Assembly (NCBI GenBank): GCA_947453415.1
Contig: CANGGG010000024.1
Location: 1-40,216 of the forward strand
From: Bacteroidota bacterium
Lineage (GTDB): Bacteria; Bacteroidota; Bacteroidia; UKL13-3
Length of the DNA stretch: 40,216 bases
Direction of reading: 5' to 3'
Below are positions 422 through 6,291 of this stretch, in pieces. How positions within the stretch are numbered: position 1 is the stretch's first letter; every line of letters starts with the position of its first letter. The notes beneath the pieces were generated by a model. It saw only the letters and a program-made list of their open reading frames with translations, was not told the DNA's origin and did not search any database. The translations under genes and the position numbers were made by a program.

Positions 422-1885
422 TTATTGCATTAATTCAAACATTTCTTTCAATATTTCTTTATCATCAAAATGATGTTTTACGCCATTTATTTCTTGATAT
501 GTTTCGTGGCCTTTTCCAGCTACCAAAATAATATCGCCTTTATTGGCCATGCCAACAGCTGCTTTTATAGCTTCTTTTCTGTTGGTGATTCTCAATGTTT
601 TTTTATAATGAACTGGATCAACACCTTTTTGCATTTCGTCTAAAATAATTTCAGGATCTTCATTTCTAGGGTTGTCAGAAGTGAAAATTACTTTGTTACT
701 ATACTTAGTGGCAACATCTGCCATTACTGGTCTTTTGGCAGCATCTCTATTGCCACCGCAACCAACTACAGTTATTAATTGTTCATTATTTGTTCTAACG
801 CCATTAATGGTGGCAAGTACATTTTTTAACGCATCAGGTGTGTGCGCATAATCAACAATTGCAACAATTCCATTGGCAGATTTTATTAAATCAAAACGAC
901 CATTTACCGAACTTAAACTTGATAAAAGTGTAATGATTTCATGTTTATCTTTTCCTAATAAAAATGCTGCACCATAAACTGCTAATAAATTATAAGCATT
1001 AAACTCACCTACTAATCTAAACCAAGCCTCATCACCGTTCATGTTTAAAAGCATTCCATCAAAATCGGCTTCCATGATTTTCACTTTAAAATCGGCCATT
1101 GATTTCAATGAATAGGTGTATCGAGTAGCTTTTGTATTTTGAAGCATGACCATGCCATTTTTATCGTCTTTATTGGTCAATGCAAATGCATCATCATTTA
1201 CATCGTCAAATAATTTTTTCTTAGCTTTTATGTAATTATCAAATGTTACATGATAATCCAAATGGTCGTGGGTAATATTGGTAAATAATACACCCGCAAA
1301 ATGCAATCCTTTTATTCTGTTTTGATCAATGGCATGTGAGCTAGCTTCCATAAAACAATACTCACAACCGGCTTCCAACATTTGTTGTAAAAGTTCATTT
1401 ATTCTAATAGCATCAGGTGTGGTGTGCGTACTTGGAATGACTGTTTCATTTATTTGATTTTGAACAGTAGAAAGTAAACCAACATGATGTCCAAACTTGC
1501 GAAACAAACTAAATAATAAACTTGCAACAGTGGTTTTTCCATTGGTTCCTGTTACCGCTACTAATATTAATTTTTTAGAAGGATGATTATAAAATTCAGC
1601 AGCCATCAAAGCCATTGCTTCACTGGTATTTGAAACTTGAATAAATGCAATTCCAATATTTAACTCAGCTGGCAAAACCTCACAAACAATGGCTTTACAG
1701 CCTTTTTCAATTACATTAGCAATATAATTATGTCCGTCAGCTTGCGTTCCTTTTATAGCAAAAAATACAGCATCAGCAGTTACATTTCTAGAATCATAAG
1801 TAAGCAAAGAAATTTCATTCTCCATGTTTCCATGAACTGAAATTGTTTGAACTGATTGAATAAGATGTGCTAATTTTTTTGCCAT
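422..1885 (-). CDS. murE: UDP-N-acetylmuramoyl-tripeptide synthetase MurE, meso-DAP type
   Basis: VTGTNGKTT P-loop, HDHLDYH, and the DNPR motif (FTSDNPRNEDP) associated with meso-diaminopimelate-adding MurE; dcw context. Confidence 0.95.
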   Translation of the reverse strand: MAKKLAHLIQSVQTISVHGNMENEISLLTYDSRNVTADAVFFAIKGTQADGHNYIANVIEKGCKAIVCEVLPAELNIGIAFIQVSNTSEAMALMAAEFYNHPSKKLILVAVTGTNGKTTVASLLFSLFRKFGHHVGLLSTVQNQINETVIPSTHTTPDAIRINELLQQMLEAGCEYCFMEASSHAIDQNRIKGLHFAGVLFTNITHDHLDYHVTFDNYIKAKKKLFDDVNDDAFALTNKDDKNGMVMLQNTKATRYTYSLKSMADFKVKIMEADFDGMLLNMNGDEAWFRLVGEFNAYNLLAVYGAAFLLGKDKHEIITLLSSLSSVNGRFDLIKSANGIVAIVDYAHTPDALKNVLATINGVRTNNEQLITVVGCGGNRDAAKRPVMADVATKYSNKVIFTSDNPRNEDPEIILDEMQKGVDPVHYKKTLRITNRKEAIKAAVGMANKGDIILVAGKGHETYQEINGVKHHFDDKEILKEMFELMQ

Positions 1886-1889
1886 AAAA

Positions 1890-4025
1890 CTATCCTAAAA
1901 TTAAATTTACTTTTGAACCTTTATTTAAAATTGAACCTGCTTTTAGAGACTGTTGTTTTACTCTTCCAAATCCATTGATACTTACTTTTAAACCTTTACT
2001 TTCTAGTAAATAAGTAGCATCTTTTGCCGACATTCCTTTAACGTCAGGCATTTGCTTAGCAACATTTATTACAGGAAATAATGATAAAGCATTGTCTTTT
2101 TGTTGAATTTTCAACCAATTTGTTTCCATGTCGTTGATGGAATCATTTTCTAAATGCGATGAAATTCCTATATCATCTAAAATAATTTTTACGTTTTCTT
2201 TATACGCTTTGCTTACTTGTGGCAAATCGTTAGAAAAGGAAGTGTAAGTTTCTCTTACATCTTTATGAATATTGGTAGTGGTTGCATATATTTTATTGGC
2301 CAAATCTTTAAAAACCGGCAATGCCAATTGTGCGCCATAAATCATGCTTCCTTGCGGACGAATAACTACTACATAACAACTGTATTTTGGTTTTTCGGCA
2401 GGAAAATAACCACACCAAGAAGCCCTATAAACCTTGGCTCCACCTTGGTAATAATCTTCGCCTTTTTGAATAATTGCAGTTCCTGTTTTACCTGCAAATG
2501 TGTATGGTAAATTAGCATTTTCTTTATTATATGCAGTGCCATTTTTTACTACACCTTCCATCATATTTTTTAATTGAGAAACGGTACTTTGTTTACAAAT
2601 TTGAGTATTCAAAACTTGCGTTTTAAATTCCTTTTCAACCTTTCCCGCTTTCATGATTGTTTTAACAAAATATGGATTTACCATGACTCCATTATTTGCA
2701 ATGGCATTATAAACAGTAAGTATTTGTAAAGGGGTTACCGAAATTCCATAACCTCTACTAATAGCCGACAAATCGCTTTTACTCCATTTATTACTTTTTG
2801 GTTTTAAAAATATTGGAGCTTGAGCACCTAACATTTGTAAATTCAAATTTTTGTTCAAACCAATTTTATCTAAAAATTCATAATGCATGCTTGGGTTTCT
2901 ATCGTAGTATTTTGCTATTTGCTTTGCAAAAGCCACATTCGATGACATTTCAAAAGCTTGTTGCATGTTTAATTCTAGGTAACTGTGAGAGTCCTCCACC
3001 AATCTACCATATACCATTGCTTTGCCTCCTTCTACATTTACTTTGCTTGTGGGAGTTACAAAACCATTGTCTAACAAACTCATCATGGTTACTAATTTAA
3101 AAGTAGAACCAGGTTGCATTCTGGTTCTTATGGCATCGTTTAAACTTTCCTCATAAGTACCATCAGTTTTTCTGGTAAGGTTAGCAATGGCTTTAATTTC
3201 GCCCGTTTCTACTTCCATTAAAATGGCAGTTCCACGCATTGCCATGTTATTTTGTAATACTTTTAAAAGCGATTGTTGCGCCACATCTTGTAAGTTGATG
3301 TCAATGGTTGAAATAATATCGCAACCATTTTCAGCTTCTTCTTTTTCTTCATTATTGATTGGAACGTATACGCCACCCGAAACTCTTTGGGTTAATTGAA
3401 CTCCATTTTTTCCGGATAAATAATCATTGAAAAACCCTTCTAATCCTACAAACTTTTTGGCCTCTTCATTTACAAAACCAATGGTTCTAAATGCCAATGA
3501 TTGAAAGGGTTTTACTCTTGTTGATCTATCTTTTATAATTAAACCGCCAGTAATTTTTCCTATTCTAAATAATGGAAATTTTTTTACGCGTAAAATTTGT
3601 TGGTGACTTACTCGTTTCTTTAAAAAATAATATCCATTTCTATTGCTTCTTAAACTTTTAAAAATGGTTTTATATTCACCTGCTGATTTATCATTAAACT
3701 CATTGCTAAAGCAATACGACAACGAATCAATGTATTTATCAAAAGTATCTTTTACCGCAAATGATGGCGCGGTGGCGTCTATAATAATATCGTAAATAGG
3801 TAATGAAGTAGAAAGTAATGAACCGTTACAATCAAAAATATTTCCTCTAATGGCTTCTATTTTTTGTTTTTTAATTGAATATTCTGTTGCTTCTTTTTTC
3901 CATTTTTCAGCTTCATTGAACTGAATATTATAAACATAATAAATAATTGCGCAAGCAAACACAAGCATTGAACCAAATATGGTTAATGTGCGAAATAGTA
4001 TTGTTTTGCGTGCGTTAATTGCCAT
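1890..4025 (-). CDS. ftsI: Penicillin-binding protein / FtsI-like transpeptidase with one C-terminal PASTA domain
   Basis: N-terminal TM segment, SxxK (GSTFKLV), SSN, and KTGTA motifs; C-terminal PDVKGMSAKDATYLLESKGLKV...LKAGSILNKGSKVNLILG is PASTA-like; dcw context. Confidence 0.93.
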   Translation of the reverse strand: MAINARKTILFRTLTIFGSMLVFACAIIYYVYNIQFNEAEKWKKEATEYSIKKQKIEAIRGNIFDCNGSLLSTSLPIYDIIIDATAPSFAVKDTFDKYIDSLSYCFSNEFNDKSAGEYKTIFKSLRSNRNGYYFLKKRVSHQQILRVKKFPLFRIGKITGGLIIKDRSTRVKPFQSLAFRTIGFVNEEAKKFVGLEGFFNDYLSGKNGVQLTQRVSGGVYVPINNEEKEEAENGCDIISTIDINLQDVAQQSLLKVLQNNMAMRGTAILMEVETGEIKAIANLTRKTDGTYEESLNDAIRTRMQPGSTFKLVTMMSLLDNGFVTPTSKVNVEGGKAMVYGRLVEDSHSYLELNMQQAFEMSSNVAFAKQIAKYYDRNPSMHYEFLDKIGLNKNLNLQMLGAQAPIFLKPKSNKWSKSDLSAISRGYGISVTPLQILTVYNAIANNGVMVNPYFVKTIMKAGKVEKEFKTQVLNTQICKQSTVSQLKNMMEGVVKNGTAYNKENANLPYTFAGKTGTAIIQKGEDYYQGGAKVYRASWCGYFPAEKPKYSCYVVVIRPQGSMIYGAQLALPVFKDLANKIYATTTNIHKDVRETYTSFSNDLPQVSKAYKENVKIILDDIGISSHLENDSINDMETNWLKIQQKDNALSLFPVINVAKQMPDVKGMSAKDATYLLESKGLKVSINGFGRVKQQSLKAGSILNKGSKVNLILG

Positions 4026-4028
4026 TTA

Positions 4029-4442
4029 TTATTCAATTGTAATTTTTGTTGGAGGAACAACTGCTTCCTTCACATAATTTGTATCTTTTCCTATTCTGTT
4101 TTGAATACTATATTCTTTTAATTTTTCAGCAATATTTGATTGCCTGCTGGCATTCATTATTTCACTTAAAATAATGATGTACTCATTCCTTAATTCTTTA
4201 TTTTCTTTTGATAGTTTATCAATTTTTTTATTCAATATATCATTGTTATGACTACTAAAAATAAGTACTGCTATTAAACCAAAACAAAATAGTATAAATG
4301 GCAATTGATTGTAAAACATGTTTACATTCAGCTTGAAATCAATTTCCGACAAGCGCTTTACGGCACCTTCAATTTGGGAAGTGTCGGGCTTTTTCTCTTC
4401 TTTAATTTCAGGCTCATCGCCAGTTATTATTTTATTGCTCAC
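4029..4442 (-). CDS. FtsL-like small bitopic division protein
   Basis: 137 aa: short cytoplasmic N-terminus, one TM segment (LPFILFCFGLIAVLIF), then a coiled-coil-like stretch; sits between rsmH and ftsI where ftsL is expected. Confidence 0.75.
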   Translation of the reverse strand: MSNKIITGDEPEIKEEKKPDTSQIEGAVKRLSEIDFKLNVNMFYNQLPFILFCFGLIAVLIFSSHNNDILNKKIDKLSKENKELRNEYIIILSEIMNASRQSNIAEKLKEYSIQNRIGKDTNYVKEAVVPPTKITIE

Positions 4443-4458: not shown

Positions 4459-5358
4459 TTATAATCGTTCGGCTACTCTTAATTTTGCGCTTCGCGATCT
4501 GTTATTCTCTTCTTGTTCTTTGTCGGTGGCCACTGCTGCTTTTTTGTTCAATGGATTAAATGGACGATTAATATTTCCAAAGAAATCTTTCTCTAATTCA
4601 CCCATTAAATTACCACTGTTCATGTAGTTTTTTACCAATCTATCTTCTAACGAATGGTAACTCATGAACACCAATCGTCCTTTTGGTTTTAGTAAGCTGC
4701 CACATTGCAAAAGCATTTTTTCCAACACATCTAACTCTTGGTTCACTTCTATTCTGATAGCTTGAAAAACTTGCGCATAAAACTTAAAGTCTTTAAACTT
4801 TGGCGCTGAACTTTTCAGTGCTTCTTTTAATTCACCTACAGTTTCAATATCTTTTCCGGTGCGTGCCGCAATAATTTCGGCTGCTAGTTTGCGCGATTGG
4901 TGCAACTCGCCATACTTATAAAATACATTTGCCAAAGCATCTGCCTTATATTCATTAATTACTTTATGTGCACTTAATCGCTGACTTTGGCTCATGCGCA
5001 TGTCTAATACTGCATCATCAAAACGAATAGAAAAACCGCGTTCACCTATATCAAATTGATGAGACGAAACACCTAAATCGGCCAATAAACCATCAACTTT
5101 ATCAAAGCCTTGGTATTGTACATGATTTTTTAAAAACTCAAAATTTTGATCTATAAAAATCAAACGTTCATCGTTTATCAAATTACGTTTTGCATCTTCA
5201 TCTTGATCAAAAGCAATCAACCTTCCTTTTTTACTTAACCTATCTAAAATAGCTTTACTATGTCCACCTCCACCATAGGTAACATCCACATAAACTCCAT
5301 CAGGATTAATGTTTAATCCCTCAAGGCATTCGTTTAACATGACTGGGTTGTGGTACAT
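4459..5358 (-). CDS. rsmH: 16S rRNA m4C1402 methyltransferase RsmH (MraW)
   Basis: MYHNPVMLNECLEGL...VDVTYGGGGHSKAIL, DGLLADLGVSSHQFD, GFSIRFDDAVLDMRM, SYHSLEDRLVK. Confidence 0.97.
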   Translation of the reverse strand: MYHNPVMLNECLEGLNINPDGVYVDVTYGGGGHSKAILDRLSKKGRLIAFDQDEDAKRNLINDERLIFIDQNFEFLKNHVQYQGFDKVDGLLADLGVSSHQFDIGERGFSIRFDDAVLDMRMSQSQRLSAHKVINEYKADALANVFYKYGELHQSRKLAAEIIAARTGKDIETVGELKEALKSSAPKFKDFKFYAQVFQAIRIEVNQELDVLEKMLLQCGSLLKPKGRLVFMSYHSLEDRLVKNYMNSGNLMGELEKDFFGNINRPFNPLNKKAAVATDKEQEENNRSRSAKLRVAERL

Positions 5359-5442: not shown

Positions 5443-5898
5443 TTACTCATTGTTTCTTTTGCTCATTACTTCTTCGGCTAAAGCACTAAAGTCTTCTGGT
5501 TCGGCATTCAGCATGGTATCGTACTCTGCTTTACTCCAAATTTCTACTTTATTGCCGTAGGCTAACAAAACAATTTCGCCTTTTAGGTTTGCATACTCTT
5601 GTAATGGTTTTGGTAATAAAACACGACTTGCAGTATCCATGTCTAATTTACTTGCTCCACGTAAAAAGTAGCGTTTAAATTCTCTTTCCTTTTTTATGTA
5701 ATCACTTAGTTTATTTATTTCTCCGGCTATGTTATCCCATTCGTTAGCGGGATACATGACACAGCATTTTTCAAAACCACGATTGATAAAAAAAGAATCC
5801 TTAGCCTCCACAGGAAGTTGCTTTTTCAATGCTGCAGGAATTATCAACCTGCCTTTAGCATCTATTTTACATTCATATTCTCCGTGTAGGTTTATCAT
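5443..5898 (-). CDS. mraZ: Transcriptional regulator MraZ
   Basis: Start GEYECKIDAKGRLIIPAALK and second AbrB-like half (LDMDTASRVLLPKPLQEYANLKGEIVLLAYGNKVEIWS); first gene of dcw cluster. Confidence 0.96.
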   Translation of the reverse strand: MINLHGEYECKIDAKGRLIIPAALKKQLPVEAKDSFFINRGFEKCCVMYPANEWDNIAGEINKLSDYIKKEREFKRYFLRGASKLDMDTASRVLLPKPLQEYANLKGEIVLLAYGNKVEIWSKAEYDTMLNAEPEDFSALAEEVMSKRNNE

Positions 5899-5933
5899 TT
5901 TTTTTTCTTACAACGCTGTAAAAATAAAACAAA

Positions 5934-5963
5934 AATCCACTTTTCTCCACTTTCCTCCACTTT
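5934..5963 (-). promoter_or_regulatory. Probable MraZ operator: three tandem 10-bp repeats AAAGTGGAnn
   Basis: On the minus strand: AAAGTGGAGG AAAGTGGAGA AAAGTGGATT (5963 to 5934), exact 10-bp period, ending 36 bp upstream of the mraZ start codon at 5898. It resembles described MraZ box repeats (AAAGTG-type in Mollicutes, TGGGN-type in E. coli). Confidence 0.75.
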
Positions 5964-6291
5964 TGTGCATAAATGAGCTTTTTTTATATTCACATTTTGC
6001 TTAAAAGAAATTAACAATGTCGCAGTTACCTAAGGCGCAAACCGTGAATAACCCATTTTGTAAAGTTTTCAACAAAAACCACTTTAAAATCTTGATATTG
6101 GAAATAAACCTTGTTTTTGGAATTTAAAAATGAATCATAGCGCTAAAAATACAAGTTAAAAAACAGTGTTTTTAAGGAATAAATTTTTGTACTTTTTTGT
6201 AAATAATTGGAAAGGTTTTTCGAAAAAAAGTTCTAGAAAAAAAGCTAACAATAAGACCAGATAGTTTTAAAAAAATGTCAGGTCTTGTTGC

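Follow-up and report, generated by a model that had tools for sequence, protein, structure and literature searches.

Few bacterial transcription factors are conserved as widely as MraZ. The E. coli protein reportedly represses its own operon, and the region upstream of mraZ in E. coli K-12 reads AGTGGGAAAT-TGTGGGGCAA-AGTGGGAATA, that is, three units with a GTGG core at a 10-bp period, just upstream of the first gene of the dcw cluster. In the Mollicutes, MraZ sites are said to be of the AAAGTG type, and they too are tandem units upstream of mraZ. These sites have been reported to be conserved (PMC5138195). In E. coli, nrdAB is under the control of DnaA, which also binds the ftsZ promoter in Caulobacter and the ftsL promoter in B. 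subtilis; promoters of ribonucleotide reductase genes are a classical kind of DnaA target in E. coli and have been proposed as such elsewhere (PMC8203912). The presence of DnaA boxes near a division gene is not proof of function, however, because in E. coli those upstream of ftsZ proved to have no effect on that gene (PMC8203912). In the literature that we searched, outside which many subscription papers lie, no papers on MraZ in Bacteroidota were found, and no DnaA box was described either at mraZ or as part of a fused MraZ-DnaA operator.

The locus described here lies in a window that is one whole contig of 40,216 bases, from a genome of 107 contigs and 2.89 Mb. The mraZ translation has two MraZ domains with the DxxxR motifs DAKGR and DTASR, and matched MraZ relatives in the PDB. 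The gene order, mraZ followed by rsmH, an ftsL-like gene, a PASTA-containing PBP gene and a Mur ligase gene, is that of the start of a dcw cluster, and as in E. coli three GTGG-core units with a 10-bp period stand just upstream of its first gene (Table 1).

Table 1. Genes and predicted regulatory elements at the start of the dcw cluster, in positions of the window.
Feature	Position	Strand	Description
mraZ	5443..5898	-	151 aa; Pfam PF02381, E=1.2e-27; two MraZ domains
rsmH/mraW	4459..5358	-	PF01795, 7e-92
ftsL-like	4029..4442	-	PF19579, 2e-17
ftsI/PBP transpeptidase with PASTA	1890..4025	-	PF00905, PF03793
Mur ligase (murE position of dcw)	422..1885	-	PF08245, PF02875
MraZ operator (predicted)	5934..5963	-	three tandem 10-bp units, AAAGTGGAGG / AAAGTGGAGA / AAAGTGGATT
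DnaA-box-like 9-mer	5964..5972	-	TTATGCACA; matches TTWTNCACA; adjoins the first repeat directly
Bacteroidota-type -7 element (putative)	5919..5926	-	TATTTTTA (TAnnTTT); 14 bp downstream of the last GTGG

An earlier note on this DNA, made from its sequence, had read the three repeats as a probable autoregulatory MraZ operator. The repeats themselves, their 10-bp spacing and their position on the minus strand were exactly as it gave them, the reverse complement of 5934-5963 reading AAAGTGGAGG-AAAGTGGAGA-AAAGTGGATT from 5963 down to 5934. The array does lie upstream of mraZ, although the gap to the start codon (ATG at 5898, minus strand) is 35 nt and not the 36 that had been counted. The three-unit pattern GTGGAN5GTGGAN5GTGGA occurs a single time in the whole 2.89-Mb genome, its reversed control pattern not at all, and the two-unit pattern AAGTGGN4AAGTGG has one further exact match in the genome, inside a 293-aa ORF, so that no intergenic exact two-unit site that might mark a further MraZ target was found elsewhere in the genome. 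Once three mismatches are allowed, two-unit matches are no longer rare in the window, and three matches were reached in 6 of 100 shuffled windows; the strength of the case therefore lies in the exact match and in conservation across species, and not in the count within a single genome.

That conservation is extensive. Among mraZ upstream regions gathered from 168 loci across the phylum, 150 have, in the best register, two or more GTGG at a distance of exactly 10 bp, against 0.45 expected from dinucleotide shuffles. The spacings between GTGG pairs peak at 10 (240 pairs) and 20 (108 pairs), while most other short spacings occur 0-6 times and shuffles give about 0.5; an additional upstream GTGG, seen mainly in family f5, apparently gives rise to the secondary peaks, which are at 21, 31 and 41. 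The unit consensus across loci is (A)(A)(A/T)(A/T)GTGG(T/G/A)A. The earlier note had proposed looking for the triplet in close relatives, and the array is indeed kept in the nearest relatives of the species and throughout the class Bacteroidia, while other Bacteroidota classes have a modified version of it. Together with the uniqueness of the array in its genome, this bears out the operator reading as far as sequence can take it, and the interpretation of the three repeats as an autoregulatory operator, to which MraZ would bind, is well supported and almost certainly correct. In eight loci of family f3 the array is changed to AAGTGGGAAAAAGTGTTATTTTGTG-like forms in which the second G of GTGG is missing from later units, which suggests that the operator has changed in this family in particular. 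The sampled genomes of families f25 (about nine) and f11 (about two) yielded no mraZ.

The comparison with the known systems does not support a second claim of the earlier note, that the motif resembles the Mollicutes form more closely than that of E. coli. The (A)GTGG core and the 10-bp period are also those of E. coli, and E. coli and Bacteroidota thus appear to share one grammar that is not especially Mollicutes-like. The differences lie in the surroundings. In E. coli the flank is GTGGG rather than the GTGGA of this locus, and the E. coli array has no adjoining match to TTWTNMACA. Relative to the Mollicutes sites, which have the AAAGTG core in common with the array, the units of Bacteroidota continue as GTGG followed by A, G or T, and the array has a DnaA-box-like site for a neighbor.

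The putative promoter is also of another type than that of E. coli mraZ. The -7 element of Bacteroidota promoters is TAnnTTTG, and TATTTTTA, at 5926-5919, is a putative match to it. Measured from the last GTGG, a TAnnTTW begins at +14, +15 or +16 in 37 of the 50 class loci for which the sequence is long enough (9, 13 and 15 cases, respectively), and the array thus borders a putative promoter both in the window and across the class. An array that stops 14-16 bp short of the -7 element fits repression by occlusion. Since the -33 region would fall within the later repeats, MraZ bound to the array would be expected to occlude RNA polymerase and so to repress its own gene. One AAAGTGG unit per helical turn could be bound by the MraZ ring, which, by covering the -33 region, would repress the mraZ-rsmH-ftsL-ftsI-murE operon. 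Taken alone, such an operator is a known type of switch and ordinary. At loci outside the class Bacteroidia (L096, L104, L109, L112 and L118 among others), a TTGACTTT/TTGACA-like sequence is often present about 30-45 bp upstream of the array in place of the DnaA-box-like 9-mer, suggesting a different promoter type.

What appears to be new at this locus is the composite arrangement of the array with that 9-mer. The element at 5964-5972 had been missed in the earlier note because its reading stopped at 5963. Its match TTATNCACA occurs in the 40-kb window only at that position. In 45 of the 53 nonredundant Bacteroidia loci that have an array, the pattern TTWTNMACA, which is itself degenerate, occurs no more than 60 bp upstream of that array (shuffle mean 3.3, maximum 9; reversed-pattern control 5), as against 1 of 30 outside the class (shuffle 0.98). 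The exact TTATCCACA is present in 6 of 48 (0.04 expected), and TTATNCACA in 10 of 48 (0.27 expected). In most forward-oriented cases the 9-mer has a fixed position, -11/-12 from the first GTGG, and this is its usual place in f1 (the family of the window), f5 and f8; in f4 and f7, where the first array unit is degenerate, it is at -21/-22. It is inverted in f2, f3 and several other families, and it is mostly absent from f6, f9 and f10, where the array is retained. When the genomes were scanned for the composite (a box, 0-14 nt, GTGG, 6 nt, GTGG), matches were obtained in 113 of 198 class genomes, as compared with about 20 genomes for a reversed control pattern. Among 100 composite matches listed from class genomes in which mraZ could be placed, with the window's own family under-represented, 86 are correctly oriented and stand immediately upstream of mraZ, at 28-83 bp from the gene match.

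Elements of the same 9-mer family recur at other loci concerned with replication and division. Their presence near promoters of a ribonucleotide reductase gene and of division genes resembles that at the DnaA-regulated promoters of E. coli nrdAB, Caulobacter ftsZ and B. subtilis ftsL. In the window's family f1, nrdJ (a gene for a ribonucleotide reductase of the B12 type, named from its sequence) is preceded within 450 bp by 2-3 boxes in 12 of 12 genomes tested, for a total of 30 (shuffle 5.1, maximum 13), and in the window's own genome (contig C34) one of them is TTATGCACA, identical to the 9-mer at mraZ. In family f2, the ftsA-ftsZ intergenic region carries 3-6 boxes in all five genomes, at conserved positions of about -126, -108, -88 and -75 upstream of ftsZ; in the other families tested this region had none, except for one box in genome G316. 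A third cluster is found beside rpiB. In one f5 genome, G170, an 851-bp intergenic region next to this gene (G170:C1:1024395-1025246) has five YAACA/CAACA-type boxes, the same variants as at mraZ of that family, and lies within about 1 kb of the GC-skew minimum (near 1,023,913 within the stretch examined). Upstream of rpiB, nine f5/f4 genomes together have 31 boxes of the TTATYAACA type (shuffle 6.7, maximum 13), whereas eight f1, f2 and f3 genomes, which serve as an internal negative control, have 3 (shuffle 2.7) and show no enrichment. The region beside rpiB is a putative oriC of f5 and f4.

Bacteroidota origins are often located away from dnaA, and few or no boxes were seen in the dnaA neighborhood of most Bacteroidia tested; TTATCAACA and TTATCCACA are clustered near dnaA in two genomes of f17, a family outside Bacteroidia. 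The origin of f1 was not found by GC skew and box search in G315, a genome of this family with a broad skew minimum (40-105 kb). Its only box-rich intergenic region, at 149 kb, was not called an origin, as it proved to be the nrdJ upstream region. DnaA is present in f1 with the canonical RDHSTV motif in domain IV, and f5 combines a DnaA carrying RDHATV with YAACA boxes. This co-variation of domain IV and box type is only suggestive, because families with RDHSTV also have AACA boxes.

All of these observations suggest that the repeats form an MraZ operator which, here and in most Bacteroidia, is composite with the adjoining DnaA-box-like 9-mer, a reading that we consider quite probable, the binding of MraZ being predicted from its family and that of DnaA from the motif. 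DnaA at TTATGCACA, immediately upstream of the array, would most likely modulate the same promoter, in a direction that the proposal does not specify, and since the two sites abut, competition or cooperation between DnaA and MraZ is plausible. Such an input could link dcw expression to the initiation of replication. With somewhat less confidence, we favor the broader view that throughout the class DnaA, placed beside the MraZ ring, sets the expression of the cell-division operon directly, and that its reach extends to ftsZ in f2 and to nrdJ in the family of the window. How replication and division are coupled has been argued for decades in E. coli. A DnaA-box-like site abutting the operator across a whole class suggests which signal the MraZ promoter may integrate, namely DnaA and the state of replication, and if this is correct, there would be a direct route from replication initiation to the expression of the division operon, with the coupling written into one promoter class-wide. 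The mraZ composite could also provide a conserved anchor for recognizing DnaA-box variants (TTWTYMACA) in Bacteroidota.

The 9-mer could be accounted for in other ways. First, the locus could be a plain MraZ operator in which the 9-mer is one more MraZ half-site, whether inverted or degenerate, and DnaA plays no part. TGTGGATAA contains GTGGA, and the 9-mer of many families, read on the opposite strand, gives TGTGG, which is like the MraZ core. However, in f4, f5 and many other families the 9-mer at the same position is TTATYAACA or TTTTCAACA, with no GTGG on either strand, and these AACA variants make an inverted half-site unlikely. The same 9-mers, moreover, also form clusters away from mraZ promoters, upstream of rpiB, nrdJ and ftsZ, and the orientation of the 9-mer flips between families with a change in spacing. 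We therefore regard this explanation as improbable, albeit the most credible of the alternatives. Second, and slightly less probable still, the 9-mer could be the site of another regulator of replication or division whose consensus resembles a DnaA box. DnaA binding is predicted from the motif, and in many lineages position 6 of the 9-mer is A, unlike the E. coli consensus. Nevertheless, the enrichment at mraZ extends to the exact TTATCCACA and TTATNCACA, mraZ and the putative oriC of f4 and f5 have matching variants, and TTATCAACA together with TTATCCACA makes up the cluster near dnaA in f17, all of which is more readily reconciled with DnaA itself. Finally, the repeats might be a product of chance or mutation, a purine-rich duplication of local origin and no regulatory role. 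This could be entertained in an AT-rich window whose shuffles reach three matches to the loosened two-unit pattern, but it is refuted by the phylum-wide conservation of GTGG and its period at mraZ and by the uniqueness of the array in the genome, and it deserves practically no credence.

Further arrangements of such boxes came from searches for clusters of TTATNNACA. Three same-strand boxes separated by gaps of at most 30 bp had no match in 12 genomes, and a two-box version of the search gave leads. At three f5 loci (L191, L192 and L200), paired TTATTCACA/TTATYAACA boxes lie directly upstream of a gene, which in L200 encodes a HU-CCDC81/SPOR-domain protein.
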